A stretch of 47,957 nt of DNA from the NCBI GenBank assembly GCA_022821275.1, contig JAJEDY010000067.1:1-47957 (forward strand), given 5' to 3'. Positions 9,307 through 41,929 of the stretch are shown here, piece by piece; positions within the stretch are counted from its first letter, which is position 1, and every line of letters begins with the position of its first letter. The notes under the pieces are model-generated. The model made no database searches, was not told where the DNA came from, and saw only the letters and a list, made by a program, of their open reading frames with translations. The translations under genes and the position numbers were made by a program. This stretch comes from Candidatus Latescibacterota bacterium. GTDB lineage: Bacteria > Latescibacterota > UBA2968.

Positions 9307-9317
9307 AAGGGAAAAGA

Positions 9318-10091: not shown

Positions 10092-10118
10092 GTGGCTTGT
10101 GACAAGAAAGGAAAAAAC

Positions 10119-25785: not shown

Positions 25786-25845
25786 ATCTTTTTTTGTTGA
25801 TATAACCTTGAATATCGAACTACGTGATAATTTTGGAGGCATGGT

Positions 25846-26112: not shown

Positions 26113-26141
26113 AGTGCAATACACAGAGACATTATTCTTCA

Positions 26142-26166
26142 GGCGACCATCACGGTCGCCTTTTTT
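26142..26166 (+). terminator. Terminator of DUF2442 copy 1
   Basis: GGCGACC (26142-26148) and GGTCGCC (26154-26160) with a 5-nt loop and six T residues. The duplicate gene has the same hairpin at 32670-32694. Confidence 0.88.
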
Positions 26167-26196
26167 GTGTGCGGTTTTAGTCTTCGCTAACCTCAC

Positions 26197-27390: not shown

Positions 27391-27405
27391 GGCGTTCTCC
27401 TCCTG

Positions 27406-27594
27406 TCAATTTGACGATACGGCTTTGCCGAAGGCATTGGCAAAAATCAGAAAATCGCTAATTCCAATCATGCCATCACCATCCAGATCAAACCGCACGT
27501 CATAACCCTCATCGCCCTCACTGAACCCAAACTGCGCTACAAAAAGCAAAAAATCGCCAATGCCTATAATCCCATCGCCGTTGCAACATCCCAC
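27406..27594 (-). pseudogene. Dockerin-like tail, out of frame with the metzincin/WD40 gene
   Basis: This frame encodes NGDGIIGIGDFLLFVAQFG and DLDGDGMIGISDFLIFANAFG, the same two EF-hand units as at 17080-17240. It should be the C-terminus of the gene at 27564-29051 but lies in another frame, overlapping it by 31 bp. Its only start is a GTG without a Shine-Dalgarno. Removing two bases (GC after GATGTT) would join WDV directly to NGDG and recreate a DxNxDG loop. I read it as the displaced tail of that gene and not as a separate gene. Confidence 0.75.
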
Positions 27595-29051
27595 AGCTTA
27601 AACTCTCGCCACGCTCCAAAAGCGAGAATTGTACCATCAGGCGAAAATGCCACAGAATAGACACCATTATCTGTTTGCCAAGTAACGATATTTGTCAGTG
27701 TTGCAACGTCCCATAGCTTGAGCGTGCCATCCTGCGACCCGGAAGAGAGGATTGTTCCATCTGGTGAAAATGACACAGAAAAGACACCAGAGGTAGTCCC
27801 CTCAAGGGTAGCGATATTTTCTCCTGTCGCAACATCCCACAGTTTTAACTCCCGCCACGCTCCGGCAGCGAGCATCTGTCCATCTGGAGAGAACGCTAAA
27901 GAATTGACAGGCCCTGTATGCCCTTCAAAAGTGGCGATATGTTGTGACAAAATTTCCCATAATCCAAAGGACTCACGCTTAACATTTCCGTCAGTATCAA
28001 TGACCTCAACGGAAATCGGATGTACAAGAGGATTTCCTAACCTCGTAAAGCCATCAGATGGAATAACACCGTCATAATCAAATTCAACGACAGTATCGCT
28101 CTTACCGTCCAATACCTGGAACGCCTTCACTTCTAGAGATCCAGTAGCCGGGTGTGGTAACACTGTTTCAACGTACAAGATCACTTGATGGAGCCCTTCT
28201 GAGTCGCTGACTTTCAGGCGGATAGGGACGCTCGTTGCGTCAGGCGTATATCCAGATGATGAAATGCGTTGGATTGTTGGCGGCGATATTTCTTGAGCTT
28301 CGACATTGAGATTGAAGTAGGGCTGTACGGCCAAATATTTGGCACTACACGCAGATAACTGATCTTCTCCTGGTCCATACGACATGAGATAGACATTTTC
28401 GTTGAAATCGTGCTGTAATCCAAAGGTATGCCCAAGTTCATGTGCGGCATTTATCCAAGGAAATTCCCCAGGTAACAATGCAGCACCACCATTTTTTTCG
28501 TGTGAGAATGCAAATCCTGCCCAGTTACCCCCTATAACTTTCACACCATTGTCAATGACAATCAAATAAATATTCCTCCGGATATCAAATGCCTGTTCAA
28601 CCTCATATAGTGTCTTACCAAAGGTATAGGTGAGATAGTAACTATCGGGATGTTGACCATCCACACGATGAACCATTGGTTCGCCCTCTGCATCGGTCTC
28701 AAAGCGGAAGGTCTTGTTTCCGTACCCATGTGCCTGCATCTGCTCGGCAAAGAAGGTCTGAGTCTGGCGAATGGTCACTTTCATCGAATCCACCACTTCC
28801 TGGCGAAAGGGACGATCATTCGGCAAAAAGTAGATCATCCGAACCGTGCGAGGTTCACCCACGTTCAAATCGAGCGCGTGCTTTGTAGCAGCATACAAAC
28901 TATCGCGCGCCCGCATGTCTTCGTAATCGAGAACTCGGCAAAAATGCACATTGTCCCCAGCAGATGGCGGCGAAGCATCTCCAACAGACGATAGACAAAG
29001 CAGTGCAAACAAGCACGCGCCCAACCTGAGTGTCTTGTAATATGTTCTCAT
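27564..29051 (-). CDS. Secreted metzincin-type zinc protease with three WD40 repeats
   Basis: The 495-residue protein has a signal peptide (RLGACLFALLCLSSVGDAS). Residues 60-235 form a metzincin protease: HELGHTFGLQHD gives zinc ligands His204, His208 and His214 with Glu205, and YLMSYG (Met223) is the Met-turn. A beta-sandwich-like region (270-385) follows, then three WD40 repeats (about 388-490; SLAFSPDG, SVSFSPDG, SVAFSPDG). Three blades cannot close a normal propeller, so repeats may have been lost. The frame ends in the third KLWDVAT, where a dockerin-like tail continues in another frame (27406-27594). I start it at 29051, since the upstream 15 residues are charged and GGGGTGA precedes this ATG. 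Paralogues of the SH3/Sm-like family flank it on both sides. Confidence 0.82.
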   Translation of the reverse strand: MRTYYKTLRLGACLFALLCLSSVGDASPPSAGDNVHFCRVLDYEDMRARDSLYAATKHALDLNVGEPRTVRMIYFLPNDRPFRQEVVDSMKVTIRQTQTFFAEQMQAHGYGNKTFRFETDAEGEPMVHRVDGQHPDSYYLTYTFGKTLYEVEQAFDIRRNIYLIVIDNGVKVIGGNWAGFAFSHEKNGGAALLPGEFPWINAAHELGHTFGLQHDFNENVYLMSYGPGEDQLSACSAKYLAVQPYFNLNVEAQEISPPTIQRISSSGYTPDATSVPIRLKVSDSEGLHQVILYVETVLPHPATGSLEVKAFQVLDGKSDTVVEFDYDGVIPSDGFTRLGNPLVHPISVEVIDTDGNVKRESFGLWEILSQHIATFEGHTGPVNSLAFSPDGQMLAAGAWRELKLWDVATGENIATLEGTTSGVFSVSFSPDGTILSSGSQDGTLKLWDVATLTNIVTWQTDNGVYSVAFSPDGTILAFGAWREFKLWDVATAMGL

Positions 29052-29095
29052 GAAATCACCCCACCTGTCTTTGAATCGAGATTTTGAAGAGCCCA

Positions 29096-29863
29096 TTAAA
29101 ACCGTAATGTAGCAATCGCTGATAATTTCCCATCGGAATTAGGGATCAGTCCCACAGAAAAACGGCGAGCTTCATAAGTATCGCGTGACTGTTCGGACAT
29201 AATCGTAGCACCAATGAGTGGGAAAATAAAAATGGCCATCAGGAGTTCATGATTAGCACGCGATATTGCTATACCTGCTCCGGCCCCTAAGAGACTACCA
29301 AGCATTGTATTTAGGAATTTATCAGATGGATCAACCATGCTCACACCGATAGGTACGCCGATCGCATAGCCAATCGCTATACCTAAAACCATTTCTCCCA
29401 AGCATGGAACGCTGCAATTATCATCACTTATCACCACCCCCGTGAATCCTCCTAGAATAGAACCCAATCCACCTGTAAGCAAACCAGTACCTATCTTGCG
29501 TGCAACTGTTGGCCTGGTTTTAATATCACCCTTCCGCTTTACGGGTGCAGTTGATTCATCGCTCATGATCACCGACACAACTTTGTCGTAGGCAATGGTC
29601 TTCTTACCACTGAAACCTCCTCCCCGAATCGTGAACGAAGTTTCACCAATCGCATCAATCCACCCCTTCTCCAATTTCTGTTCGCCTTTGCTATCGTAAT
29701 AAGTGACTGCAACGTAGGCATATCGGACCAACGTATCGGCATTGACCTCTGCGCCTTGCAGATATGTGGCTGCATACGCGAGTGTGGGCATCATCGCATT
29801 GAGCAAAAGGGCTGTCGTGACCAGGATCGCGATGGCCCTACTCGCGTTGTATTCGGCGTGCAT
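29096..29863 (-). CDS. SH3/Sm-like repeat family protein, short form (paralogue B)
   Basis: A 255-residue member of the family at 26197, 32725 and 34880. The signal or anchor segment (about 8-31) ends in AYAATYLQGAEVN, and one SH3/Sm-like module follows (VAVTYYDSKGEQKLEKGWID, then AYDKVVSVIMSDES). Modules 2 and 3 are missing. In their place is a glycine-rich membrane region (GLLTGGLGSILGGFTGVV and three further hydrophobic stretches) that resembles glycine-zipper proteins. The tail ends LSAIATLRF instead of AALTFNF. AAAAGGAG precedes the ATG. It is the gene nearest the relic sigma-54 promoter at 30450, about 590 bp away. Confidence 0.78.
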   Translation of the reverse strand: MHAEYNASRAIAILVTTALLLNAMMPTLAYAATYLQGAEVNADTLVRYAYVAVTYYDSKGEQKLEKGWIDAIGETSFTIRGGGFSGKKTIAYDKVVSVIMSDESTAPVKRKGDIKTRPTVARKIGTGLLTGGLGSILGGFTGVVISDDNCSVPCLGEMVLGIAIGYAIGVPIGVSMVDPSDKFLNTMLGSLLGAGAGIAISRANHELLMAIFIFPLIGATIMSEQSRDTYEARRFSVGLIPNSDGKLSAIATLRF

Positions 29864-29944
29864 AGTTTTCTCCTTTTGTGCCGTACAAAAAAAATCGCAT
29901 TTCGTTCCTCATCTACGCAAGACGCAGTGTGACGAGTTGACATC

Positions 29945-30132
29945 GACACCCCCAAAAAGGGGTGTCGGGCATTGTCAACAGTCACGCAGGAATAGAAATG
30001 CGGGAATGTCCTACCTATTTACCGAGACATGGGGGATCAGTCCATGTCTATATTCGGCTATTGTATTCAGCAGATACCCGACATAACGGGACCTGCTCGA
30101 CTGTTGACAAAAAGAAAATATACCATTCCCGC
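29945..30132. other. Structured non-coding element
   Basis: Between paralogue B and the duplicated promoter segment are several exact inverted repeats. GACACCCC/GGGGTGTC (29945-29952 with 29959-29966) and AGACATGG/CCATGTCT (30025-30032 with 30042-30049) are local hairpins. TTGTCAACAGTC (29972-29983) with GACTGTTGACAA (30099-30110) and GCGGGAATG (30000-30008) with CATTCCCGC (30124-30132) are long-range and interleaved, so together they could only form a pseudoknot. No open reading frame is supported. It could be a small palindromic mobile element or a structured leader. The rest of 29864-30200 shows nothing else. Confidence 0.45.
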
Positions 30133-30201
30133 GTTTTTTCAAATAGTTTTGTGATTTATATTCAATAATTTGGACAGTATCAGACAGCAATTTTGCTACA
30201 T

Positions 30202-30304
30202 CTAAAAATAGGCATGAATGCCCCCGCCTGCATAAACGCCAGCAAGACCCGTAGATTGAGAACTAATTTTTTCTCTGAGCCGGGAAACTGAAGGTTACAC
30301 TCAA
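30202..30304 (-). pseudogene. Internally deleted copy of the small outer-membrane protein gene
   Basis: 30202-30279 matches 35718-35795, the last codons of the barrel gene (AGVYAGGGIHAYF and stop). 30280-30304 matches about 36182-36206, its signal-peptide codons (VTFSFP). About 386 bp between them are missing. The two ends are in different frames and a TAG interrupts. The breakpoints lie at A-rich tracts in both source sites. Confidence 0.8.
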
Positions 30305-30394
30305 CAGAAACAGAAGCACCACTCTGCCCGTGGTAATTAAATTGGCAACCTGACCTGGAAACGCGGTCGCAAACGTCGATGTAAGCGTTGACAT
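30263..30394 (-). CDS. 43-codon chimeric reading frame (phosphatidyltransferase start fused to signal-peptide codons)
   Basis: The first 30 codons match the start of the CDP-alcohol phosphatidyltransferase gene at 38044 (MSTLTSTFATAFPGQVANLI, then RVVLLFL). The next ten come from the signal peptide of the small barrel gene at 36242 (LSVTFSFP), joined in frame. The frame ends RKN at a TAG (30263-30265). AAGGAGG lies just before the ATG, as in the parent gene, and a complete sigma-54 promoter sits at 30450-30466. The product would be a short peptide with one hydrophobic segment (about 24-38). It may be only a by-product of a deletion, but every expression signal is preserved. Confidence 0.5.
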   Translation of the reverse strand: MSTLTSTFATAFPGQVANLITTGRVVLLFLLSVTFSFPAQRKN

Positions 30395-30449
30395 CTCAAC
30401 CTCCTTCTGAAAGGTTCACATCTCAAACTTCTCGGTCACAACACGCAAT

Positions 30450-30466
30450 ATGCAAATCCCGTGCCA
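30450..30466 (-). promoter_or_regulatory. Sigma-54 (RpoN) promoter, duplicate copy
   Basis: On the - strand it reads TGGCAC-GGGAT-TTGCAT, with GG and GC 10 bp apart as the -24/-12 consensus requires. It is identical to the promoter at 38100-38116. Downstream on the same strand are the 43-codon frame, paralogue B, the metzincin gene and paralogue A. Confidence 0.75.
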
Positions 30467-30528
30467 AAACCATTTTACCCTCGAAAAAGGCCATTTTACC
30501 TGTTATCCACCCCAAAAATGCCCAAACA

Positions 30529-30568
30529 GTGCAAACTAAATATTGCACCTGCAAACCCCGTATTGCAC
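30529..30568. promoter_or_regulatory. Tandem 20-bp dyads, putative enhancer (duplicate copy)
   Basis: GTGCAA-N8-TTGCAC (30529-30548) is followed directly by CTGCAA-N8-TTGCAC (30549-30568). Both lie 63-102 bp upstream of the -24 element and are the same as at 38180-38219. Confidence 0.7.
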
Positions 30569-30582
30569 AGCAGACACAACAA

Positions 30583-30610
30583 ATCCGGAGACACACTGTG
30601 TATCTCCGGA
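30583..30610 (-). terminator. Decayed copy of the response-regulator terminator
   Basis: The stem ATCCGGAGACACA/TGTATCTCCGGA of 38235-38263 is kept, but its run of A residues (T on the - strand) is interrupted here (AACAA), so termination should be weak. It marks the outer edge of the duplication. Confidence 0.6.
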
Positions 30611-30904
30611 CTCATCCAACGGATTAGAAATTTGCTGACTATAATGGATTGCAGTGGTTTTGTCTTTCGGCACTTGTTCGGGAAAGAATTTCTCTCTTGC
30701 ACAACGATACGACGCGATAGGTGGGTCAGAACAGACGCTTTTGGAGCGGCATCCTTGCCGCGAGATATTGTCAAATGTTATTATCCGGACAAAAGTATGG
30801 GTTGTTTACTTTCCAACTGGGTTTGGATATATTTACCTGTGATTACTATTTCCAATATTATACAGATGATGTGATTTGTAAACTTATTGGGAGGCCATGA
30901 AGCC

Positions 30905-32344
30905 ATGACGGTTGCTGATTATATCAAGCAAGGGGAAGGTAAGACGCTGGAATTTAAGCGGGACTTGTCTTCACCCAAAAACCTGCTGAAAACTCTGGTG
31001 GCATTTGCGAATACAGCGGGTGGGCGGGTAATTATCGGTGTGGATGATATATCTCGTTTGCCCGTGGGGGTAGAAAATCCGCTTGATGAAGAGGAACGGC
31101 TTTGTAGTTTGATCGCCGACTCGATCAGACCGCGTTTGGTTCCCAATGTCGAAATGACGACAGTTGATGGCAAAACGCTGCTTGTCGTAGAAGTTTTTCT
31201 GAGCGGAGTCCGTCCACACTATTTGGAAGCCGAAGGCCCTGATCGCGGTGTCTATGTCCGTTTAGGCTCCACCAATCGTGTGGCAGATAGGGAATTGATC
31301 GCCGAGTTGGGCCGCTCGGTAGAAGGGATTGCTTTTGATGAACTCCCGATGCCCGAGTTATCGGTTGATGATCTGGACTTGGGGGTACTGGAAAATCTAT
31401 TTCAGGATCGGCGCGACCTCGGCGAACGGGAATTACACACTCTGAGGCTATTGACGAATGAGCAGGGGCGAGAGGTGCCAACAAAAGGCGCGATTTTGCT
31501 CGTAGGAAAAGAGCGGGAAAGACATTTCCCCGATGCCTGGGTACAATGCGGACGTTTCATTGGTCGGGACAAAGCGGATATCTTCGATCATATAGAACTG
31601 CACGACCCGTTGCCTTTGGCCGTGGAAAGCATCATGTTATTTCTCAAAAAGCACGCCATACGCGGTGCTGATTTCTCCGAAGTCCGGCGCAAAGACATCT
31701 GGAATATTCCCCTTGGAATTTTGCGCGAAGTGGTCATTAACGCGCTTGTTCACGCTGACTATTCACAAAAGGGAACACCCATTCGGGTGGCTTTTTTTGA
31801 TGACCGAATCGAGGTCGAAAATCCCGGCATATTGCTGCCGGGTTTGACCTTTGACGATATTCGCCAGGGTATCTCTAAAATACGCAACCATGTCATTGCA
31901 CGCATCTTTCGCGAACTCAATTTGATTGAACAATGGGGCAGCGGCATTCCCCGCATCTTCCGCGAGGCTGAAGCACTGGGGCTGTCGGAGTTGCGTATTG
32001 AGGAAATCGGTATGCGGATGCGTGTTACCGTACCGTTACTTGAGGACATCGCGGTTCACAAGGAACCCGAACAAGCTACCGAACAAGCTACCGAACAAGT
32101 AACCGAACAAGCAAAACGCATCCTGAACTGCTTAAAAAATGAACCCTTGAGCGCACGCGAAGCAATGAAAGCCCTTGGATTACATCATCGCCCCACGTTT
32201 TTTTACAACTATATGCAACCCGTCATGACAACAGGACTTGTTGAAATGACACAGCCCGAATCGCCGAGGAGCCCAAATCAGAAATACCGCCTCACAGCGA
32301 AGGGGAAAATGGCGATTTTTCAAAGCGGCCTACCGGAGGATTAG
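30905..32344 (+). CDS. AlbA_2 / HATPase_c_4 protein (Schlafen-like putative regulator)
   Basis: The 479-residue protein begins with an AlbA_2 domain (about 12-130; TLEFKRD, AFANTAGGRVIIGVDD, YVRLGSTNR). A middle region is followed by an HATPase_c_4-like module (about 270-370; LREVVINALVHADYS, IEQWGSGIPRI). A Thr-Glu-Gln repeat linker (about 385-400) and a C-terminal winged-helix-like segment end the chain. Such proteins are annotated as transcriptional regulators or RecG-like ATP-binding proteins and are often horizontally moved; some relatives occur in phage-defence loci. I prefer the ATG at 30905, with GGGAGG about 10 nt upstream, over a TTG at 30887. It lies between the two duplicated blocks and reads against both - strand series. 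Confidence 0.85.
   Translation: MTVADYIKQGEGKTLEFKRDLSSPKNLLKTLVAFANTAGGRVIIGVDDISRLPVGVENPLDEEERLCSLIADSIRPRLVPNVEMTTVDGKTLLVVEVFLSGVRPHYLEAEGPDRGVYVRLGSTNRVADRELIAELGRSVEGIAFDELPMPELSVDDLDLGVLENLFQDRRDLGERELHTLRLLTNEQGREVPTKGAILLVGKERERHFPDAWVQCGRFIGRDKADIFDHIELHDPLPLAVESIMLFLKKHAIRGADFSEVRRKDIWNIPLGILREVVINALVHADYSQKGTPIRVAFFDDRIEVENPGILLPGLTFDDIRQGISKIRNHVIARIFRELNLIEQWGSGIPRIFREAEALGLSELRIEEIGMRMRVTVPLLEDIAVHKEPEQATEQATEQVTEQAKRILNCLKNEPLSAREAMKALGLHHRPTFFYNYMQPVMTTGLVEMTQPESPRSPNQKYRLTAKGKMAIFQSGLPED
32067..32112. repeat. 12-bp tandem repeat within the AlbA_2 gene
   Basis: About four units of CCGAACAAGCTA encode the ATEQ/VTEQ linker. Copy number in such linkers usually varies between relatives. 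Confidence 0.75.
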
Positions 32345-32374
32345 ACATCGGCAATGTCTATTTGGAGACCTGGC

Positions 32375-32641
32375 GTGAACACTGCGAATAATACCGAACC
32401 TCGCATCAAAACTATCAAGATCACTGAGGAATTGATCATCGCAGATTTGGTATATGGTCGAACAATCAGCGTACCTCTCGTTTGGTCCTGGCGGCTTTCA
32501 GACGCAACACCTGCTCAACGCAAAAACTATGAATTTATTGGCGACGGTCAGGGCGTTCACTGGCCGGATATTGATGAAGACATCAGTGCAGAAGGTATGT
32601 TGATGGGGGTACCTGCACGCCCCGCCAAACAACGTGTGTAA
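32375..32641 (+). CDS. DUF2442 domain protein, copy 2
   Basis: Near copy of the protein at 25846, 88 residues, with differences such as Asp to Tyr in ADLVYGRT and Glu to Lys in RKNYEF. By analogy it starts at the GTG at 32375 (GGAGA 6 nt upstream), although the frame is open to an ATG at 32354. It lies 30 bp after the AlbA_2 gene, so it may be read through from it. The downstream terminator and the convergent family member are shared with copy 1. Confidence 0.83.
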   Translation: MNTANNTEPRIKTIKITEELIIADLVYGRTISVPLVWSWRLSDATPAQRKNYEFIGDGQGVHWPDIDEDISAEGMLMGVPARPAKQRV

Positions 32642-32669
32642 AGTGCGAGATACAGAGGCATTATTCTCA

Positions 32670-32694
32670 GGCGACCAGCACGGTCGCCTTTTTT
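32670..32694 (+). terminator. Terminator of DUF2442 copy 2
   Basis: GGCGACC (32670-32676) and GGTCGCC (32682-32688) with a 5-nt loop and six T residues, homologous to 26142-26166. Confidence 0.88.
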
Positions 32695-32724
32695 GTTTCT
32701 GAATTTATTCTTTTTCAAGCCTAA

Positions 32725-33801
32725 TTAAAAATTAAACGTGAGCGCGGCGCGAAGCCCGTTACCCGATGTGGGCGCAAGACTCAGGTTGAGACTCTGAGGC
32801 GACACCTTGACCCATTTGTCGGATTTGTCCATTGCGCCAATTATCGTACCAGTTAAAGTGGTGAGAACAGCAGCAGGTACAGCGACCAAAATAAGTCCAA
32901 GTTCAGCCCACCCTCTACTTTCGTCGTCGGCTTTATGTACATCCCAAGCAGATAGGGCAAGAATGCCAACTCCAATTCCAAGTCCAATTGCCGCTCCTTT
33001 TTCTGTGTTTCTATACTGTCCAATGTTGACTTCAAGGTTGGAGATTGAAGAACGGGACACCTGATAAAAGCTACGACCTCGTAGGATAACGAGTGTGTCT
33101 TGCGTCATTTTTACGACCTTGCCAACCATCCATTTCTTTTTAATCGAAGGGACACGGACACGCACTTTGGCATTTCCTTCATGAAGCAATTGCATAACCA
33201 TCCATCCTTCAATATCTCGTTGATGTTTCGCAACAGCGAGTGTATCAATCTCACTATATGCTATTTTCCAGTTTTTCCAGAACTCTTCCCTCTTTTGAAT
33301 TACAATACGGTCTGAGTCTCTATCGGTAATCTTTCCAGTTGCATTTTTTTTCTTCTTATCTGACGTATAGGCAACGTGGGCATACCACCCCTTCCTAATC
33401 TTTGAAAGATCAATCTGCTCGCGCGACATGAGCGTGATGGCCTTCAACTCTTCCTGTTTTTTTATTTCTTCAATAAACCGATTCACGTCACTCATCTGCT
33501 TTAGTATGGCTGATTCTTCGCTCATGATCACTGACAGGACTTTGTTGTAGGCAATCGTCTTCTTGGTCCAATGTCCACTGCGAATCGTGCACGAAGTTTC
33601 ACCAACCGCATCAATCCATCCCTTCTCCAATTTCTGCTTGCCTTTGCTATCGTAATATGTGACTGCAACATAGGTATCTTGAACCAACGTATTAGCATTG
33701 ACCTCTGCGCCTTGCAGGTATGTGGCTGCATACGCGAGGGTAGGAGCCATCACATTGAGCAGGAGGATCGCGGTTACAAAGACAGCAGCTAATTTTTTCA
33801 T
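32725..33801 (-). CDS. SH3/Sm-like repeat family protein (paralogue C)
   Basis: A 358-residue paralogue of the genes at 26197 and 34880. The signal or anchor segment (about 4-25) ends in AYAATYLQGAEVN. Three modules follow: VAVTYYDSKGKQKLEKGWID to VLSVIMSEES; WYAHVAYTSDKKKKNATGKI to IDTLAVAKHQRD; and KVRVRVPSIKKKWMVGKVV to ISNLEVNIGQ. Two hydrophobic segments (about 270-285 and 305-325) precede the tail WVKVSPQSLNLSLAPTS and the ending AALTFNF. AAAGGAGAAA precedes the ATG. It is the last gene of the - strand series starting at 38044 and converges on DUF2442 copy 2, as paralogue A converges on copy 1. Confidence 0.8.
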   Translation of the reverse strand: MKKLAAVFVTAILLLNVMAPTLAYAATYLQGAEVNANTLVQDTYVAVTYYDSKGKQKLEKGWIDAVGETSCTIRSGHWTKKTIAYNKVLSVIMSEESAILKQMSDVNRFIEEIKKQEELKAITLMSREQIDLSKIRKGWYAHVAYTSDKKKKNATGKITDRDSDRIVIQKREEFWKNWKIAYSEIDTLAVAKHQRDIEGWMVMQLLHEGNAKVRVRVPSIKKKWMVGKVVKMTQDTLVILRGRSFYQVSRSSISNLEVNIGQYRNTEKGAAIGLGIGVGILALSAWDVHKADDESRGWAELGLILVAVPAAVLTTLTGTIIGAMDKSDKWVKVSPQSLNLSLAPTSGNGLRAALTFNF

Positions 33802-33830
33802 GCGTTTCTCCTTTTGAGACAGTAGCTAAC

Positions 33831-33876
33831 TCAAAATCGAAGCGTAGCAACAGCGGATAATCGTCCTTTGGGACCT
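33831..33876 (-). pseudogene. C-terminal remnant of a paralogue B-like gene
   Basis: On the - strand these bases encode PKGRLSAVATLRF and a TGA. The final residues match the end of paralogue B (DGKLSAIATLRF). A stop codon lies two codons further upstream, so only the tip of the gene remains, between paralogue C and the gene at 33892. Confidence 0.65.
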
Positions 33877-33891
33877 GTTTAGTAATACTTC

Positions 33892-34809
33892 TTAAAATCT
33901 TAAAAACGGTCCAACCGCCACAGACTTCCCCCGCACAAAATAATTTCTCAAATACTCCCAAAATAAGTCTGTTCGCGCAGTGGCTTGCACACCGATATGC
34001 GGATGAATAGGTACTAGGAGAGTGGCACCCACCGAACCCTGTGGACGGGTAGCTTCAGGTCCGAACGGATCCTCTCCGCGAATGTAGTAGTATTTCTCAA
34101 AAGATAAACCAAACGCGAGGTCGGCCATCACGGCAGCATATTTACTCTTATAGAGAGCATATTGAGTGACCAGCAATAACGAAACCAACTGTCCAGTGAT
34201 ACCCTCCACACGCCGTCTAAGCTCAGCGGCACTTGGAGGGTAAGGATTCACATGTTCTCGGTCAGGAGATTCCGGGAAAATATGTACTTTTCGATAGGCA
34301 TATCTCAGTCCAATTCGTGAACGTCTTTCACTTGAAAAGAAATCGCCGAAATAGACCGATGCGGACCAGGGCAGTGCCTTTTGATGTCTCGCACCGAAGA
34401 TGAAGTATCCTGTGTTCGCTTTATCGACGCCTCCCAAATAATCGGCTTCAAGCGTCAGGTTGGGTCTGTATCGTGCTCTCAAGGAACGCAGCTTTTCCGT
34501 TCTTTCTCGTTCAGACATCGCAATGACCAGCTTGTGAATTTGGTCACGCTCAATCTCCGTCTTCCAAGAATGAATTCCGATAGTCAGCCGCTCTGAATCA
34601 ATTGCCTTGATATATCCTCTTACAGTAGCCATTCTTTCCCACTTTCCAGAGACCGGATGCCTCTCTCCTTCCCCGTAAATGATTACTACATACGCGCCGA
34701 CTTCAACCGTGCTGCTATCAATCTCACCGACTTTCATGACCTCTTCTGCCTGTAAGATCATTGGTATAAATGCGCCTAAAAACAAAACCATTACAGCCAT
34801 TCGTGCCAT
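33892..34809 (-). CDS. Outer-membrane barrel protein with N-terminal SH3/Sm-like module
   Basis: A 305-residue protein with a signal peptide (MARMAVMVLFLGAFIPMILQAEE). Residues about 35-100 form one module similar to those of the neighbouring paralogues (VVIIYGEGERH, MATVRGYIKAIDSERLTI, IHKLVIAMSERERT). After a charged linker come alternating amphipathic strands (TLEADYLGG, GYFIFGARHQ, ASVYFGDFF, SRIGLRYAYRK, GVQATARTDLFWEY) and the C-terminus SVAVGPFLRF. A terminal Phe after such strands is the usual signal for insertion into the outer membrane. I start it at 34809, with AGGAGG 5-6 nt upstream. It links the repeat family to the outer membrane. Confidence 0.75.
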   Translation of the reverse strand: MARMAVMVLFLGAFIPMILQAEEVMKVGEIDSSTVEVGAYVVIIYGEGERHPVSGKWERMATVRGYIKAIDSERLTIGIHSWKTEIERDQIHKLVIAMSERERTEKLRSLRARYRPNLTLEADYLGGVDKANTGYFIFGARHQKALPWSASVYFGDFFSSERRSRIGLRYAYRKVHIFPESPDREHVNPYPPSAAELRRRVEGITGQLVSLLLVTQYALYKSKYAAVMADLAFGLSFEKYYYIRGEDPFGPEATRPQGSVGATLLVPIHPHIGVQATARTDLFWEYLRNYFVRGKSVAVGPFLRF

Positions 34810-34879
34810 GAGTTCCTCCTGCTCAATAAATGACGTGATCTCTAACTCTAAGCGCAATTCGCGGCGAAAATGAATCCCA

Positions 34880-35731
34880 TTAAAAATTAAACGTAAGTGC
34901 GGTGTGTAGCCCTTTTGTAGATGTGGGTACAAGGCTCAGGTTAAAGTGTTGAGGTGGTATTTTGACCCATGTGTTAGATTTTGTTGCAGCACCAATAAGG
35001 GTAGAAAGAATACATATCGGTAGAGATACATATATTGCGGTAAAGAATGTAGGAAGCCCTTGTAATTCGCCCCCCTCTCTCGCATCGGCAATCGCGACTG
35101 GAACAAGGACACCAAGACCGAGTGCAAAACCGAATTTCATTCCTTTGTCCGTGTTTCTATGCCGTCCAATATTCACTTCAAAATTGGAGATATCAGAACG
35201 GGATACTTGAAAAAATGTGCGTCCTCTTTGGATAACGAGTGTGTCCTGCGTCATTTTGACAAGTCTGCCAATTATCCGTCTCTTCTGAATTGATGGGGCC
35301 TGCACACGCACCCTGGTATCGTATTTCGTTAAACCGATGTATGCGGCCTGTTCCCTATCTTGTTTTGCCTGCTCTATCTCTCGTTTTCTCATAAACCGAT
35401 CTACTTCATTGATTTGCTTTATGGGTGTGGTAGATTCGTCGCTCATGATCACTGACAGGACTTTGTCATAGGCAATGGTCGTCTTGCCGAAAATTGCTCT
35501 GCTCCGAATCCGAAATGTGGTCTCGTCAATAGCATAAATCCACCCCTTCTCTAATTTTCGTTTTCCATTGCTATCGTGATACCTGACTGCAACATAAGCA
35601 TCCCGAACCAGCATATCGGCATTGACCTCTGTGCCTTGCAAGTATGTGGCTGCATACGCGAGCGCAGGGGCAATCGCATTGAGCAGGATTGCCCCGACCA
35701 TAACAATAGATAGAGACCTAAAAATAGGCAT
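34880..35731 (-). CDS. SH3/Sm-like repeat family protein (paralogue D)
   Basis: A 283-residue paralogue with two modules. A signal or anchor segment (MPIFRSLSIVMVGAILLNAIAPALAYA region) leads into ATYLQGTEVN. Module 1 is VAVRYHDSNGKRKLEKGWIY to VLSVIMSDES, then a short charged helix, then TRVRVQAPSIQKRRIIGRLV to ISNFEVNIGRHRNT. The middle module of A and C is missing. Two hydrophobic segments and the tail WVKIPPQHFNLSLVPTS, ending in TALTFNF, complete it. I start it at 35731, with AGGAGGAGG upstream; that ribosome-binding site lies within the last codons of the barrel gene it overlaps by 14 bp, which suggests coupled translation. Confidence 0.78.
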   Translation of the reverse strand: MPIFRSLSIVMVGAILLNAIAPALAYAATYLQGTEVNADMLVRDAYVAVRYHDSNGKRKLEKGWIYAIDETTFRIRSRAIFGKTTIAYDKVLSVIMSDESTTPIKQINEVDRFMRKREIEQAKQDREQAAYIGLTKYDTRVRVQAPSIQKRRIIGRLVKMTQDTLVIQRGRTFFQVSRSDISNFEVNIGRHRNTDKGMKFGFALGLGVLVPVAIADAREGGELQGLPTFFTAIYVSLPICILSTLIGAATKSNTWVKIPPQHFNLSLVPTSTKGLHTALTFNF

Positions 35732-36242
35732 GGATGCCTCCTCCTGCATAAACGCCAGCGAGACCCTTAGATTGAGAACTGGTTTTTTCCCTGCCAAACC
35801 CTTGACCGATCTCCACGTTCAAACCAAGAGGAATCCCCCCAAGTGAAAACACAAGCTCGCCTCCAAAGGCAAGTCCAGTTGCCAGCGTCGTGGTCTTGAC
35901 AGTCTCCTCGCGGAGTCCCTCCTCTTTCTGTTGCCAGCCGCCTTCGAGAGTGAAATGAAGTCGGGCAAGGTTCCACCTGCTCTGGTGTTCGAATATGGCA
36001 TACGAAACGCCAGCACCTAACATATGGTCACTATCCTGACCATTGAGAATAAAACGTCCAACTGTTTGAAGATATACCGGTGCCAGTCCGTTATAGCGAA
36101 AACTAATGCCACCAAATGTGGGTGTCGCTCCCTGAAGTCCAATACCGAAATTTTTGGTGAGATCAGTTTTTTTCGCCTGAACCGGGAAACTGAAGGTTAC
36201 AATCGAAAGGATACAGACCAGATAAGAAATTGAGCGTGTCAT
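35718..36242 (-). CDS. Small outer-membrane beta-barrel protein
   Basis: A 174-residue exported protein. The signal peptide SISYLVCILSIVTFSFPVQA is followed by about eight amphipathic strands (FGIGLQGATP, FGGISFRYNG, VYLQTVGRFIL, LGAGVSYAIF, ARLHFTLEGGW, TTLATGLAFGGELVFSL, LGLNVEIGQGF) and a C-terminal GVYAGGGIHAYF ending in Phe, as expected of an outer-membrane barrel of the OmpX/OmpW size class. AAAAAAGGAG precedes the ATG. It lies 53 bp after the flippase-like gene and overlaps paralogue D. A collapsed copy remains at 30202-30304. Confidence 0.8.
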   Translation of the reverse strand: MTRSISYLVCILSIVTFSFPVQAKKTDLTKNFGIGLQGATPTFGGISFRYNGLAPVYLQTVGRFILNGQDSDHMLGAGVSYAIFEHQSRWNLARLHFTLEGGWQQKEEGLREETVKTTTLATGLAFGGELVFSLGGIPLGLNVEIGQGFGREKTSSQSKGLAGVYAGGGIHAYF

Positions 36243-36295: not shown

Positions 36296-37306
36296 CTACA
36301 TCTCAACCTGCTGAAGGCGATCATTTTGCGGTATCTCATCAGCCCGCTTGCCCCGTGGTCCAATCAGCAGCAAAGTTAGCCCTACCTGCATCCAGAAAAG
36401 CCTCCGAACCCGCCGAATAATACCCACAGCCAAACCCATCTTTGGATCCAACCCCATCAAATGAAACAGAAACACATGCCCACCTTCAAAAACGCCCATC
36501 CCGAGCGGAACAAAAAAGAACGCCGCATTAATCACAATCATCAGCGCGTGGAACAGATACACCGAAACAAACGGCATCGGTTCACCCAGCACGTAAAGAA
36601 TCGCGTAAATCTCCAGCGTCCCCAGGCTCCAGCCCAACAGATGCAAACCCAACAACCCCGCCAAACGCCACCTATTCAACCGATAAAACTGAGCCAACTT
36701 CTCATCAATCTCCACTGCCTGGTCGCGGAACCGCTCCAAAAACCTGAGCCGCAACCACAGCATCAAATTCAAAAACCGCGCAAAGGGGCTTCGGCGTTGC
36801 CTGAAAACAGTCCAAACAACCCCCAGAACAGACAGCGCCAGAACAGCGATCAGAGCGCCTCGCACCTCAGCCGGCCATGAAAAACGCTGCAAACCCAGCA
36901 CAACACCACCGATCACAAAAATCACCCCACCAATCATCTCACCCGTCTTATTGATCACCAGCGACGACACCCCACGGGAAACGCACATCTTATCTCTCAG
37001 CACAATCGCCTTGCCGACCTCCTTACCAACCTGCGATGCCGGCGCCACATTGCCCACCGCCTCGCCAACCAACTGCACCCACAGCAACTGCCTCAAACGC
37101 GGCCTTTCAGACCCGCGATCAAAACATGCCCGCCACATCCACGCATGATGAACAAATACCACCAGCGACAGACCGATCACCAGCACATACCCCCAACCCA
37201 TCATCAAAACATGCTGCAAGACCTCTGGGGCACTGAGCTGATGCAAAAGCACACCCAGGCCGACAAATCCGATCAGACAAAGCACGATATGCGTTCCCTG
37301 TTTCAT
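36296..37306 (-). CDS. Lysylphosphatidylglycerol synthase TM-like (UPF0104) membrane protein
   Basis: A 336-residue integral inner-membrane protein with about eight hydrophobic segments. The pattern matches the LPG_synthase_TM/UPF0104 family, the flippase half of MprF and the relatives of AglD: LLWVQLVGEAVGNVAPASQVGKEVGKAIVLRDK in the middle and PLGMGVFEGGHVFLFHLMGL near the end. These proteins are thought to move lipids or lipid-linked sugars across the membrane. No synthase domain is attached. GGAGGATGGC precedes the ATG at 37306. It lies about 90 bp after the CDP-alcohol phosphatidyltransferase, so the pair could make and translocate a phospholipid derivative. Confidence 0.85.
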   Translation of the reverse strand: MKQGTHIVLCLIGFVGLGVLLHQLSAPEVLQHVLMMGWGYVLVIGLSLVVFVHHAWMWRACFDRGSERPRLRQLLWVQLVGEAVGNVAPASQVGKEVGKAIVLRDKMCVSRGVSSLVINKTGEMIGGVIFVIGGVVLGLQRFSWPAEVRGALIAVLALSVLGVVWTVFRQRRSPFARFLNLMLWLRLRFLERFRDQAVEIDEKLAQFYRLNRWRLAGLLGLHLLGWSLGTLEIYAILYVLGEPMPFVSVYLFHALMIVINAAFFFVPLGMGVFEGGHVFLFHLMGLDPKMGLAVGIIRRVRRLFWMQVGLTLLLIGPRGKRADEIPQNDRLQQVEM

Positions 37307-37322
37307 GCCATCCTCCGAAAAG

Positions 37323-37381
37323 CGAATCAACGAATAGACGAATCTACGAATCCCCCCAGCCCCTCCCCGACCTGGGGGGAT
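37323..37381. repeat. GAATAGAC-type repeat and 10-bp GC hairpin
   Basis: GCGAATCAACGAATAGACGA and following units (37323-37350) match the dispersed GAATAGAC repeat. Directly beside them ATCCCCCCAG (37350-37359) pairs with CTGGGGGGAT (37372-37381) around 12 nt. There is no T-run on either strand. It sits between two genes presumed to be co-transcribed and may attenuate or stabilise the mRNA. Confidence 0.55.
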
Positions 37382-37396
37382 AGCCCAACCATCACC

Positions 37397-38044
37397 TTAT
37401 ACAACAACCCGTTTAGCAGCCGTAATCACTGGAATCGCCCGAATAACACAAAGCGCGGCCGTCAGATACGTCGCCATCAAAGCAAACATCTCAAGACCCG
37501 ATAAAAATGCAGGCGTCAAACCCGGCATCAGTTGTGCCGCATTCAGGCTGAACAACAGCACAAACGCGACCACCTTAGCAGTCCCGTACGTCGCCCGGCT
37601 CACGCGCGAGGCAACCAGCGCGAACCCAATCCGCGACTTCATCATCGTTGACTCGCCAAACGCTGTGAAGCCCTTCGTCAGCGCACAACTGCGAATTGCA
37701 TCCGTCACAAACCCCCTGCTGAGCACCACAATCGGCACCCAAAGCGGAATGACATGCAACCACGCAAACACCACCCACCACACATTCTCCGCAATCCGAT
37801 CACCCACAATATCCAGCACCCCCCCGACCTTACTCTCGCAACCCAACCGCCGCGCGAGATACCCATCCAGCCAATCCATCACCAGCGCAACAAAAGCGAG
37901 CGGCACCGCAACCCAGGCCAGCATCACATCTCCAGACACAGCAAAAACCGTCGCCAGAAACAGCAGAACCACTCGAGCCGCGGTAATCAAATTGGCAACC
38001 TGACCTGGAAACGCGGTCGCAAACGTCGATGTAAGCGTTGACAT
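37397..38044 (-). CDS. CDP-alcohol phosphatidyltransferase family protein
   Basis: Integral membrane enzyme that transfers a phosphatidyl group from a CDP-linked lipid to an alcohol, releasing CMP. The family motif D-G-x2-A-R-x8-G-x3-D-x3-D is complete: Asp60, Gly61, Ala64, Arg65, Gly74, Asp78 and Asp82 (DGYLARRLG, then GGVLDIVGD). About six hydrophobic segments cover its 215 residues. The acceptor alcohol (glycerol phosphate, inositol phosphate or other) cannot be read from the sequence. I start it at 38044, with AAGGAGG 5 nt upstream. A sigma-54 promoter lies about 56 bp before the ATG and the flippase-like gene follows, so lipid synthesis here appears signal-controlled. Confidence 0.9.
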   Translation of the reverse strand: MSTLTSTFATAFPGQVANLITAARVVLLFLATVFAVSGDVMLAWVAVPLAFVALVMDWLDGYLARRLGCESKVGGVLDIVGDRIAENVWWVVFAWLHVIPLWVPIVVLSRGFVTDAIRSCALTKGFTAFGESTMMKSRIGFALVASRVSRATYGTAKVVAFVLLFSLNAAQLMPGLTPAFLSGLEMFALMATYLTAALCVIRAIPVITAAKRVVV

Positions 38045-38099
38045 CTCAGCCTCCTTCACAAAGGTTCACATCTCAAACTTCTCGGTCACACCGCGTAAT

Positions 38100-38116
38100 A
38101 TGCAAATCCCGTGCCA
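38100..38116 (-). promoter_or_regulatory. Sigma-54 (RpoN) promoter
   Basis: The - strand reads TGGCAC-GGGAT-TTGCAT: TGGCAC at 38116-38111 and TTGCAT at 38105-38100. This is a full match to the -24/-12 consensus. Transcription would start near 38090 and read the phosphatidyltransferase, flippase-like, barrel and repeat-family genes. The adjacent regulator gene encodes a sigma-54 activator. Confidence 0.82.
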
Positions 38117-38179
38117 AAACCATTTTATCCCAGAAAAAGGCCATTTTCCCTGTTATCCACCCCCAAAAATGCCCAAACA

Positions 38180-38219
38180 GTGCAAACTAAATATTGCACC
38201 TGCAAACCCCGTATTGCAC
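38180..38219. promoter_or_regulatory. Two tandem 20-bp dyads, putative activator-binding enhancer
   Basis: GTGCAA-N8-TTGCAC (38180-38199) abuts CTGCAA-N8-TTGCAC (38200-38219). Their centres are 20 bp apart, about two helical turns, and lie near -99 and -119 relative to the predicted start. That is the usual place and geometry for NtrC-family enhancer sites. The activator gene begins to end 72 bp further on. Confidence 0.72.
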
Positions 38220-38227
38220 AGCAGGCA

Positions 38228-38263
38228 CAAAAAAATCCGGAGACACAATGTGTATCTCCGGAT
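38228..38263 (-). terminator. Terminator of the response-regulator gene
   Basis: ATCCGGAGACACA (38235-38247) and TGTATCTCCGGAT (38251-38263) form a 13-bp stem with one mismatch. On the - strand it is followed by seven T residues. It isolates the regulator transcript from the sigma-54 promoter. Confidence 0.85.
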
Positions 38264-38291
38264 CAGTAAAGTTGCAGGGGCTGGGGGCTGG

Positions 38292-39683
38292 CTACCGATA
38301 AATCCCGGGATCGATCCCGTGCTCCTTCAACTTCTGTTGCAGCGCCTGCCGTTTCATGCCAATGGCCGGTGCTGTACGACTGATATTGCCGTTGTGGTAT
38401 TCCAACGCGGATCGGATAAACGCAACCTCAAAAGACTGCACAACCTCCTGCTTTGCATCTTGAAAAAATACCCCATCACGCCAGACAGACTCAGTGTTCT
38501 CCACAGACTCAACACCCCGAACCTCCTGGGGAAGCAAATCGCGACTTAGCTCAGACCCATCCGAAAAAATAACCGCTCGCTCGACCAAATGCATCAACTC
38601 GCGTATATTACCCGGCCAGGCATACACCATCAGCAACTTCATCACATCCGGCGGAACATCCGTCATCGCCTTGCCGTGCTGATCATTAAAACGCGCCAAA
38701 AAATGCTGAACAAGCAGCGGAATATCCTCGCGCCGATCCCGCAGCGGCGGCAAAAAAATATCCACCACCTTCAAGCGATAAAAAAGATCCTCCCGGAACC
38801 GCCCTTCTACAATCTCCACTGGTAAATCCTTATTCGTCGCGCTGATAATCCGAACATCCACCGTCACCGTCTCCGAACCGCCCAGCCGCTCAAACTGTTT
38901 CTCCTCCAGCACGCGCAACAACTTCGCCTGCGTCTCGATGTGCATATCGCCGATCTCGTCCAAAAACAGCGTCCCCCCATCCGCAAGCTCAAACTTGCCC
39001 TGCCGCCGCGCAGTCGCCCCGGTAAACGCGCCCCTCTCATGCCCGAACAACTCACTCTCGATCAACTCCGTCGGCAACGCCGCCGCATTCACTGCGACAA
39101 AAGGCCGCGCCTTTCGGCCGCTCTGCTCGTGAATCGCCCGCGCGACCAACTCCTTACCCGTACCGCTCTCCCCGCTAATCAGCACCCCAGCATCGGTCAT
39201 CGCCACCTTCCCGATCAAATCATAGACCCCCTCCATCGCACGGCTGCGACCAATCAACAACCCGAACCCCGACTGCTGACGGATCTCGTTGCGAAGCGTC
39301 TCATTCTCCCGCCGCAACCGCACCGTCTCCAGAACATTCTCCACCAAACAGCGCAACTCATCCACATCGTAGGGCTTGCTCAAATAATCGTACGCCCCCA
39401 CCTTCATCGCCTCCACCGCAACCCGCTCCGACCCATACGCTGTAATCACAATAACCGGCCGCGCATCCCCCTGATCAGCCAATCGCTTCACCAGCGTCAA
39501 TCCATCCATCTTCGGCATCTGGATATCGCAAATCAACAAATCGGGATTGTCCTGCGCCACAGCCGCCAACGCCGCCGCACCATCCTCTGCCTCGACAATC
39601 TCACACCTCAGCGCAGCAAGTGCCCGCTTCAACCCGTACCGCGCCGCAGGATCATCATCCACAATCAAAATTTTATACTGCAT
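38292..39683 (-). CDS. Sigma-54-dependent response regulator (NtrC family)
   Basis: A 463-residue transcription activator with three domains. The receiver (1-120) has phosphoacceptor Asp53 (LLICDIQMP), the acidic pair in IVDDD, and Lys103 (SKP). The AAA+ domain (about 140-370) has Walker A GESGTGKE (171-178), the sigma-54-contacting loop GAFTGA (218-223), Walker B LFLDEIGD and the arginine-finger region FREDLFYRL. The C-terminal Fis-type helix-turn-helix (about 420-463) reads ISRTAPAIGMKRQALQQKL. I prefer the second ATG (39683): AAGGA lies 8 nt before it but touches the first one. The histidine kinase is 62 bp upstream. Likely targets are the sigma-54 promoters at 38100 and 30450. Confidence 0.93.
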   Translation of the reverse strand: MQYKILIVDDDPAARYGLKRALAALRCEIVEAEDGAAALAAVAQDNPDLLICDIQMPKMDGLTLVKRLADQGDARPVIVITAYGSERVAVEAMKVGAYDYLSKPYDVDELRCLVENVLETVRLRRENETLRNEIRQQSGFGLLIGRSRAMEGVYDLIGKVAMTDAGVLISGESGTGKELVARAIHEQSGRKARPFVAVNAAALPTELIESELFGHERGAFTGATARRQGKFELADGGTLFLDEIGDMHIETQAKLLRVLEEKQFERLGGSETVTVDVRIISATNKDLPVEIVEGRFREDLFYRLKVVDIFLPPLRDRREDIPLLVQHFLARFNDQHGKAMTDVPPDVMKLLMVYAWPGNIRELMHLVERAVIFSDGSELSRDLLPQEVRGVESVENTESVWRDGVFFQDAKQEVVQSFEVAFIRSALEYHNGNISRTAPAIGMKRQALQQKLKEHGIDPGIYR

Positions 39684-39745
39684 AGTCTTCATCCTTCACA
39701 CGTCTTGGCTGTCAGCTATCAGCGGCCAGCCCACCAACATCTCTT

Positions 39746-41875
39746 TTATCTGCGTCCATCTGCGTCATCTGCGGATCGCACTTCATCCCCCCCGGGAAGT
39801 TGAACCGCAAACACCGCCCCTGCCCCCTCTGCATTTGCCACCTCAATCACACCCCCCATGCGCTCCACATCGCGCTTCACAATCGCAAGCCCCAACCCCG
39901 TGCCCGAAGCCTTTGTCGTAAAAAACGGCTCAAAAATGCGAGCCTGATCTTCCTCTGAAATCCCCGGACCCGTATCCGACACCCGTACTTCCACCCCACC
40001 CTGCAATCGCCGCGCCTGCACCGTCAACTGCCGCTCTGTGCAATCGACTTCCATAGCCTGAATACCGTTCAAAATCAAATTAAAAAACACTTCCTTCAGA
40101 TCCTCTGGATCGCCCTTCACCGCGAGACCATCCGCCACCTCGAAACAGATCTCCACATTCTGTCGTTCCGCCTCGTGAAACAAAATCAGCACCACATCTT
40201 CCAGCACAGTCTTTAGATCCAACACCTGAAATCCATCGTCCTGCTTGGGCTGAGCAAACCTGAGCAAGCGATCCACCACGCGGCTTAACCGATCAATCTC
40301 GCGCAACACCACAGACAAATCGCCCGCCTTTGTCTGATCACCCTGCAAATCCTCCCGCAACACAGTCGCAATCGCCTTGATCGAACTCAGGGGATTCTTC
40401 ACCTCGTGCGCAATACTCGCCGAAAGCAACCCCAACGCCGAAAGCCGCTCCGCTTCGTACATCTGCCGCTCCAATTGCAACCGCCGCTCCACCAGACGCG
40501 TATTTTCAATCGCCAGTGCAATCTGATTGCAAAGCGTACCCAGCAAATCCCATTCCTCAGACGAAAAAGATCCCCCGCGCTTCTTCTCGCCCAAACAGAG
40601 CAAACCAACCGGCTTTTCCTCTTGCAAAACCGGAATACACAGTTCAACCCCTTGCTTTGCGAGTATTGCGGTAAGTGCTGGATGGTGCAAATCGCCTACA
40701 TCCAGCGGGCGGCGATGGGTCAACAGCCAACCGACCACTGCCTCAATCTGCGCCTCGTCCCCATCCCCAAACGGTGTGACCGGCGGCTCAAACCCCGGCA
40801 GACCACTGCTTGCGATCACCTGCACCTGACTCACCTGTCCCTCCTCGTACTCAAACACCACCAGCGAAACAGCGTGTACCTTCAACACAGTTCCAACCGC
40901 ATCCACCACCGACTTCAACCGATTCTCCAGCGCGTGCGGCACATTCAGCGTTTGACTCAGCGAACCCAGCAAATGCTGGTACTCGTATCGCGCCCTGAAA
41001 AACAGGCGATTGATGATCCCCTGCAACCTGTTCTTGATCGGCTGAAACAGAAAAATCAGCAGCGAAATCAAAATAGCCTCAACCACCTCCACCCTGAACC
41101 CACTATCCAGACGCCCCAATGCCTCTGCAACGCGCCGGATCACCAGCAAATAAACCGTCAACACAATACCCGTCAGCGCAGAATAAAACAACGCGGGATT
41201 CACCACAATCTGGAAAAAGCTGTACCGATAAATAAAATAGCCCAGAATATACGCCGGCGCGATAGGCGAAAGAAAAAGCACCAGCGCGAGCACAGGTCCC
41301 ACAACAGCACTTTGAAGCAATCCAATCGGATACGCAAAAACCGTCAAAACCGCAATACCCGTCAGCGCGAATGCCATCAATCGGCAAAACACCTTATGCA
41401 CCTCTGTCTCCGACCGCATCGCAAAACCCCGGCAGAGATACGCTGAAAACAGAAGCATAGCGATGGCATACAGGCTAAAACTCACGCGCTTGATCGGCGC
41501 CTGGGACATGCCAATCAAAAAGATGATCACCCCCGGCACAAAAGTGATCGGAATGAGATACCGCCGCAACCCGCGCGCCACCTTGTGCTCATCTGCAAAA
41601 GCCAGCACTGTTCCCAGCAGCGCAGACGGCAAAAAATCCAGCCCAAAACGCGCCACATGCGCCGCATAATTCACGGCACCGGCATCTGGCGCCGCCTGCT
41701 CGATCAAAATGCGCAGCGCGTCCCCCGTGTACCAGAGTGCCCCCGCAGAAATCAAAAACAACAACGGCAGCGGCGTGCCCCTCCGCTTTACCGCCGAGAC
41801 AAAAATGCCCCAGAGCAACCCGGCGGCAATCACCGCGCCGACCAGCCAGATCGTCTCGTATAACGATAAATCCAT
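39746..41875 (-). CDS. Membrane histidine kinase with GAF domain (PrsK/NtrB-like)
   Basis: A 709-residue sensor kinase. Residues 1-290 contain about eight to ten membrane helices, a GAF domain spans about 310-460, and the kinase core follows. The H-box ASIAHEVKNPLSSIKAI has phospho-accepting His490. The N-box FFNLILNGIQAM (Asn603), G1 box SDTGPG (Asp634) and G2 box GTGLGLA (658-664) are intact. The architecture recalls PrsK, the kinase of PEP-CTERM/exosortase systems, whose partner PrsR is also sigma-54-dependent; no exosortase or PEP-CTERM protein is visible here. I start at 41875 (MDLSLYETIW), with GGTGAA upstream. The last codons and stop lie within an ATCTGCG repeat. It pairs with the regulator at 38292. 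Confidence 0.9.
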   Translation of the reverse strand: MDLSLYETIWLVGAVIAAGLLWGIFVSAVKRRGTPLPLLFLISAGALWYTGDALRILIEQAAPDAGAVNYAAHVARFGLDFLPSALLGTVLAFADEHKVARGLRRYLIPITFVPGVIIFLIGMSQAPIKRVSFSLYAIAMLLFSAYLCRGFAMRSETEVHKVFCRLMAFALTGIAVLTVFAYPIGLLQSAVVGPVLALVLFLSPIAPAYILGYFIYRYSFFQIVVNPALFYSALTGIVLTVYLLVIRRVAEALGRLDSGFRVEVVEAILISLLIFLFQPIKNRLQGIINRLFFRARYEYQHLLGSLSQTLNVPHALENRLKSVVDAVGTVLKVHAVSLVVFEYEEGQVSQVQVIASSGLPGFEPPVTPFGDGDEAQIEAVVGWLLTHRRPLDVGDLHHPALTAILAKQGVELCIPVLQEEKPVGLLCLGEKKRGGSFSSEEWDLLGTLCNQIALAIENTRLVERRLQLERQMYEAERLSALGLLSASIAHEVKNPLSSIKAIATVLREDLQGDQTKAGDLSVVLREIDRLSRVVDRLLRFAQPKQDDGFQVLDLKTVLEDVVLILFHEAERQNVEICFEVADGLAVKGDPEDLKEVFFNLILNGIQAMEVDCTERQLTVQARRLQGGVEVRVSDTGPGISEEDQARIFEPFFTTKASGTGLGLAIVKRDVERMGGVIEVANAEGAGAVFAVQLPGGDEVRSADDADGRR
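39748..39773. repeat. ATCTGCG repeat, copy overlapping the kinase stop
   Basis: Three ATCTGCG units (39748, 39758, 39767) encode the last residues of the kinase (ADDADGRR). The same string occurs at 46717-46743 and, inverted, around 23060-23139. Confidence 0.65.
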
Positions 41876-41929
41876 AACATTCACCGCCTTGAAGTAAGAA
41901 GGCCACACCACCCAAAGGCTGGTGCTTCA

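Follow-up and report, generated by a model that had tools for sequence, protein, structure and literature searches.

The window that we analysed, a stretch of 47,957 nucleotides from a Candidatus Latescibacterota genome, very probably carries a dedicated local two-component sigma-54 switch which acts on lipid-synthesis, flippase-like and exported envelope genes. According to the proposed mechanism, a membrane histidine kinase would phosphorylate the adjacent NtrC-family regulator, which would bind both abutting 20-bp dyads located behind the terminator of its own gene and oligomerise. The bound regulator would then loop across the ~64-bp linker, and its AAA+ GAFTGA machinery would open the -24/-12 promoter, so that genes for a phosphatidyltransferase, for a membrane protein of HpnL/LPG_synthase type and for several exported proteins in a row would be expressed. 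Through a duplicate of this promoter, the same regulator would also drive a second set of exported proteins, with SH3-like repeats. We infer the kinase-regulator pairing, the binding of the regulator to the dyads and the activation, as well as the physiological role, which would be membrane lipid/envelope remodelling. The locus provides a testable, site-level sigma-54 circuit from an uncultured phylum.

Control region and its probable activator

The elements follow one another on the - strand in the order kinase, regulator, terminator, dyads, -24/-12 promoter, a leader of ~50 nt with AAGGAGG, and the ATG of the phosphatidyltransferase gene:

39746-41911, - strand: membrane sensor histidine kinase with a hydrophobic multi-TM N-terminus, GAF (328-468), HisKA (493-555) and HATPase_c (600-706)
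38292-39692, - strand: NtrC-family response regulator/enhancer-binding protein with receiver, AAA+ and Fis-type HTH
38234-38264, - strand: intrinsic terminator of the activator gene, 14-bp stem and T-run
38200-38219, - strand: distal putative activator dyad, 20 bp, GTGCAATACGGGGTTTGCAG
38180-38199, - strand: proximal putative activator dyad, 20 bp, GTGCAATATTTAGTTTGCAC
38100-38116, - strand: sigma-54 -24/-12 promoter TGGCACGGGATTTGCAT (TGGCAC-N5-TTGCAT), predicted +1 near 38090

The promoter lies where the first-pass annotation had placed it, the core -24 GG and -12 GC are correctly spaced in TGGCACGGGATTTGCAT, and no sigma-70-like promoter was found in the gap between the activator and phosphatidyltransferase genes. 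In the genome (5.66 Mb in 101 contigs), 40 matches to the strict pattern TGGCACN5TTGCW were counted, versus 4 to its reversed control. With this tenfold excess, a modest false-positive rate should be assumed for any single site, and the site at 38100-38116 is convincing because it is conserved (see below). The two putative dyads abut at 38180-38219 on the - strand, share the pattern TGCAA-N8-TTGCA and are separated from the -24 box by 63 bp. They had been described before as two abutting GTGCAA-N8-TTGCAC-type dyads; the position was correct, and the 6-bp arms do not hold for the distal dyad, where the perfect dyad is 5 bp. Also as described, they stand beside the terminator (38264-38234) and the stop (38292) of an activator gene whose GAFTGA loop, at residue 221, is intact.

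A Pfam scan and a check of residues gave the domains Response_reg, Sigma54_activat and HTH_8 in the order that defines the NtrC family, with receiver residues D56, D12-D14 and K106 and the Walker A motif GESGTGKE present, and the inverted-repeat sites predicted upstream of the promoter are paired, as would be expected for an activator of this family. Against the model of NtrC proper (TIGR01818) the regulator scores 472.6, below the cut-off of 558.6. In the kinase, the start codon of which is uncertain, the HisKA histidine is H in SIAHEVKNPL. The lack of an RpoN gene had been named as a possible refutation of the scheme; rpoN is present in this genome, G000 (PF04552 at G000:C59:57915-58388, E 8.8e-56, RpoN box ARRTVAKYR).

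Genes behind the promoter

Six genes were examined downstream of the primary promoter:

37397-38041, - strand: CDP-alcohol phosphatidyltransferase with the DxxDGxxARx8GxxxDxxxD motif intact; start codon ATG at 38041, preceded by AAGGAGG
36296-37330, - strand: LPG_synthase_TM / flippase-like, HpnL-related membrane protein
35718-36242, - strand: 174-aa protein with a signal-peptide-like N-terminus and C-terminal ...HAYF, no family match
34880-35749, - strand: exported member of a family with SH3-like repeats and a glycine-rich helical hairpin
33892-34809, - strand: exported protein related to this family, with a single SH3-like repeat and a C-terminal region that varies
32725-33801, - strand: exported member of the SH3-like-repeat and glycine-rich helical hairpin family, 358 aa, structure modelled

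The phosphatidyltransferase scores 59 bits against PF01066 (cut-off 22), and its motif can be read directly in the translation. The ORF finder started this gene at a GTG at 38059, which is unlikely because a ribosome-binding site precedes the ATG at 38041; the predicted start of transcription near 38090 would fit the latter arrangement. The gene content given in the first-pass annotation (phospholipid synthesis, a flippase-like protein and envelope proteins) was right, as a phosphatidyltransferase, an LPG_synthase_TM/HpnL-like protein and signal-peptide proteins are present. For the phospholipid synthesis named there, the product of the enzyme is uncertain: it stays below the cut-off for PgsA (TIGR00560, 61.4 vs 109.1), and the genome contains six PF01066 matches, this enzyme included. 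The HpnL-like protein scores above the general flippase-like cut-off and below that of HpnL itself.

The 174-aa protein is possibly a small outer-membrane barrel; its predicted structure (pLDDT 32) is unusable. In the model of the 358-aa protein, which is of moderate quality (pLDDT 70, pTM 0.35), a signal-peptide-like N-terminus appears to be followed by repeats that form small beta-barrels and by a glycine-rich helical hairpin. Compared with solved structures, this model matched Tudor/SH3-like folds weakly, with 0 matches at E <= 0.001, and no solved relative of the protein was found by sequence. A literature search for such a combination of lipid and envelope genes with a two-component system found nothing.

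Conservation across genomes

The close relatives used for comparison are MAGs named Latescibacterota, two of which are filed as Gemmatimonadota. Sponge-associated Latescibacterota have been described (PMC12993501). Each of the 11 genomes of the genus has the tandem dyad next to its orthologue of the activator gene, so that homologous loci devoid of the dyads, listed earlier as another possible refutation, were not encountered there. Tandem dyads and an orthologous regulator were both missing from the four other genera of the family that were compared (0/4 for both), the best activator match being <50% identical over most of the protein.

An alignment of 13 control regions included two diverged orthologues, L022 and G014, the activators of which are 77-83% identical. 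Conserved islands in this alignment coincide with the half-sites and the -24/-12 core. Half-sites are retained at 19/20 positions in L022 and 20/20 in G014, versus 44/80 and 46/80 (~55%), respectively, for the spacers and linker (Fisher p = 4e-4 and 8e-5, with positions taken as independent and only two diverged sequences compared). The -24/-12 core is invariant at 10/10 bases across the 13 sequences, L022 and G014 included. With TTGCA and the -24 T as its limits, the linker measures 64 bp in nearly all regions, even in L022 despite its diverged linker sequence; the exceptions are 63 bp (the duplicate in the window), 61 bp (G014) and 53 bp (L020), where a single 11-bp piece, approximately one helical turn, is missing. 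The HTH of the regulator is nearly identical in nine aligned orthologues, and its residues TAPAIGMKRQALQQK are invariant. All orthologous loci that were examined have phosphatidyltransferase and HpnL-like genes behind a copy of the promoter, which in G013 is the distant one. No 174-aa protein was found in L022 or G014, nor was the SH3-like family found behind the L018 genes. Such conservation shows that the unit of activator, sites and promoter is real.

Extent of the predicted regulon

According to the first-pass annotation, the motif should predict a regulon genome-wide. This expectation failed, as scans for the tandem dyad, for single dyads near -24/-12 sites and for a relaxed pattern all gave the present locus as the only credible target. 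Perfect TGCAA-N8-TTGCA dyads number 12 in the genome, 4 of which make up the two tandem pairs in the window. The tandem dyad with <=3/20 mismatches occurs at 4 places in 5.66 Mb (0 for the reversed control), and is perfect only at the two window sites. None of the other single perfect dyads lies <=3 kb from a strict -24/-12 site, the nearest pair being 3.3 kb apart. The relaxed pattern (dyad, 45-75 bp, GGC-N8-TGC), scanned over 15 genomes, recovered the present locus in 11/11 genus genomes and sporadic or coding-like matches elsewhere; recurring ones (TGCACAGGG...GTGCAACAGG...) are conserved along their whole length between genomes and look protein-coding. We therefore rejected a genome-wide regulon, at the resolution of scans which degenerate, weaker target sites would escape. 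Since a credible combination of dyads and promoter exists only at the present locus, a dedicated local switch is indicated, with a predicted regulon of one locus and, after duplication, two promoters. The regulator would thus activate a single locus, as co-localised activators of Desulfovibrio do (PMC4641369, PMC3333781), and the dyad motif would serve as the address of a single locus and not of a wide regulon.

One may ask whether the promoter, while sigma-54 dependent, has its dyads read mainly by another NtrC-type activator, the neighbouring regulator having its targets elsewhere. As the genome contains 33 matches to the activator, another of them could bind the dyads, and a paralogue locus on contig C73 has TGCAA-N3-TTGCA sites with an identical half-site. 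However, the spacing is N3 at that locus and N8 here, the dyads adjoin the present regulator gene throughout the genus and are missing together with it from the four other genera, and no other credible dyad target was found in any genome scanned. Local targets are, moreover, common, a strict -24/-12 site being located within 700 bp of 7 of the 13 activators listed for this genome, with ~0.02 expected per gene. We consider binding mainly by another activator quite improbable, and retain the adjacent regulator as the candidate reader of the dyads.

Duplication of the control region

A feature absent from the first-pass annotation is a second copy of 37955-38265, found at 30305-30614, 92.6% identical, in which terminator, dyad pair and promoter are all preserved intact:

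30529-30568, - strand: duplicate tandem dyads, perfect, identical to the primary pair
30450-30466, - strand: duplicate sigma-54 -24/-12 promoter TGGCACGGGATTTGCAT
30205-30391, - strand: remnant in which phosphatidyltransferase codons 1-32 lie beside the 24 final codons of the gene for the 174-aa protein, frame closed
29096-29863, - strand: SH3-like family gene, 255 aa, first intact gene behind the duplicate promoter
29096-27564, - strand: metallopeptidase/WD40-type protein, between SH3-like genes
26197-27390, - strand: SH3-like family gene, 397 aa, further behind the duplicate promoter

Because the promoter was duplicated and the copy is without lipid genes, the same regulator should also drive this second SH3-like set. 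The distal-dyad spacer TACGGGGT is common to both window copies and occurs in none of the other genomes, therefore the window copy arose (or was homogenised) in the present lineage. The G000 duplicate might conceivably be an assembly join, but G013, a single-contig genome, also has two copies of the control region, at 1260167 and 1279827, of which the regulator-adjacent one is without lipid genes and the distant one keeps them. The G013 breakpoints, at codon 10 of the phosphatidyltransferase gene and codon 310 of the HpnL-like gene, differ from those in G000. To judge from these sequences, the dyads and promoter appear to have been co-duplicated at least twice, independently, in G000 and in G013, the lipid genes having been lost from the distal copy in the former and from the activator-adjacent copy in the latter. 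What is most unusual about the locus is that two independent duplications led to one and the same outcome, which makes it a small example of a local switch gaining targets.

The presence of two copies in the window and two in G013 might suggest that a repeat or a mobile element, and not a control region, accounts for the conserved block. This explanation is extremely improbable and was rejected: nine other genomes have one copy at the orthologous place, 0 further copies exist in 5.66 Mb, the extra copies include parts of adjoining genes, and conservation is concentrated in the half-sites and -24/-12 elements.

Each independent duplication left one copy without lipid genes, facing SH3-like genes, and this would also agree with the expanding exported SH3-like-repeat family being the main output of the switch and the two lipid-type genes mere passengers. 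We regard such a division of roles as unlikely, since both lipid-type genes are kept in every genome examined, and since L018 retains the promoter and the genes for the phosphatidyltransferase, the HpnL-like protein and the 174-aa protein, behind which no SH3-like gene was found. The reading we favour remains a switch acting on lipid-type and envelope genes together. It is conceivable, if still doubtful, that such a switch gains targets by repeated in-place duplication of its control region and loss of lipid genes rather than through scattered sites, with the SH3-like family placed under the same kinase in a lipid/envelope remodelling specific to this lineage of Latescibacterota and without described counterpart.

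A separate observation concerns the surrounding gene array. Diverged direct duplications of SH3-like family genes surround the duplicated promoter (25832-36242), among them a direct repeat, 25832-26313 / 32361-32841, which is 87% identical; the arrangement of this gene-family expansion site also differs in other members of the genus. Elsewhere in the window, 17252-18176 is a tandem duplication of ~460 bp, 81% identical.

Other sigma-54 loci in the genome

The layout of the present locus recurs in the genome. At four further loci a promoter lies directly behind an activator gene, with differing kinds of repeats between them, and local sigma-54 switches therefore look a common style in this genome. 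At one noteworthy locus (L179, G000:C73:146000-156500, 6763-10499), genes for a histidine kinase and an NtrC-type regulator are followed by paired TGCAATTTTTGCA-type sites and TGGCACGGATATTGCT, then by a PTS EIIA_2/PtsN-like gene and, 3 nt on, by a sigma-70-family (RpoD/RpoS-like) sigma factor. This looks like a sigma-54-to-sigma-70 relay, in outline similar to Rrp2-RpoN-RpoS of Borrelia (PMC2940757). At another (L178, G000:C81:38500-46000, 620-6302), an activator gene with a sigma-54 promoter directly behind it precedes genes for a radical SAM/SPASM peptide-maturase-like protein and an ADOP-type permease, possibly a sigma-54-controlled modified-peptide cluster. A third (L180, G000:C67:1000-10500, ~7500-7800) has three similar TGTTTC-N4-GAAACA-type repeats ~24 bp apart between the activator gene and the -24/-12 element; the long ORF that follows has matches among phage-integrase-type recombinases and also contains an AAA region. 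At a fourth (L181, G000:C46:45500-55000, 1-4732), the promoter downstream of the activator faces genes including a second, apparently receiver-less sigma-54 activator, and an activator cascade is possible.

Comparison with known systems

The closest known system in layout and site geometry is AtoSC/atoDAEB of E. coli, where a 40-bp element consists of two abutting 20-bp sites (PMC3118216). Both systems combine a kinase and an NtrC-family regulator with a neighbouring sigma-54 operon and two abutting 20-bp sites with TGCA half-sites, and the top NCBIfam matches of our pair are AtoC and AtoS. However, the scores fall far below the cut-offs (NF008469, 495.6 vs 714; NF008468, 214.7 vs 646 bits), for which reason AtoSC membership was rejected. 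The 20-bp sites read TGCA-N10-TGCA here and GCTATGCAGAAATTTGCACA in atoDAEB, and the targets are lipid/envelope genes rather than the short-chain fatty-acid genes of E. coli.

In biological setting, the closest system is PrsK/PrsR of the PEP-CTERM system, in which an upstream motif and a -24/-12 box precede exported surface-protein genes (PMC1569441, PMC9850573). A transmembrane kinase, an NtrC-family regulator and a motif with -24/-12 ahead of exported-protein genes are common to both, whereas the scores for PrsR (TIGR02915, 402.7 vs 502.6) and PrsK (TIGR02916, 134.7 vs 300) are below the cut-offs and no exosortase (PF09721) was matched in the genome at E <= 0.001; PrsKR membership was rejected on both grounds.

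Co-localised enhancer-binding proteins of Desulfovibrio mostly use palindromic sites with 4-6 bp arms and 3-8 bp spacers, and many of them have cell-exterior targets; of the one-component activators in that count, most have a divergent target and only one has its target behind the activator gene (PMC4641369, PMC3333781). The activator gene adjoining its own sigma-54 target is a shared trait. The phylum and the site sequence are different, and the target lies here behind the activator gene, an arrangement rare among the Desulfovibrio one-component activators. The type of switch is ordinary, and the locus adds a clean new case to the general class of two-component sigma-54 activators that are co-localised with their targets.
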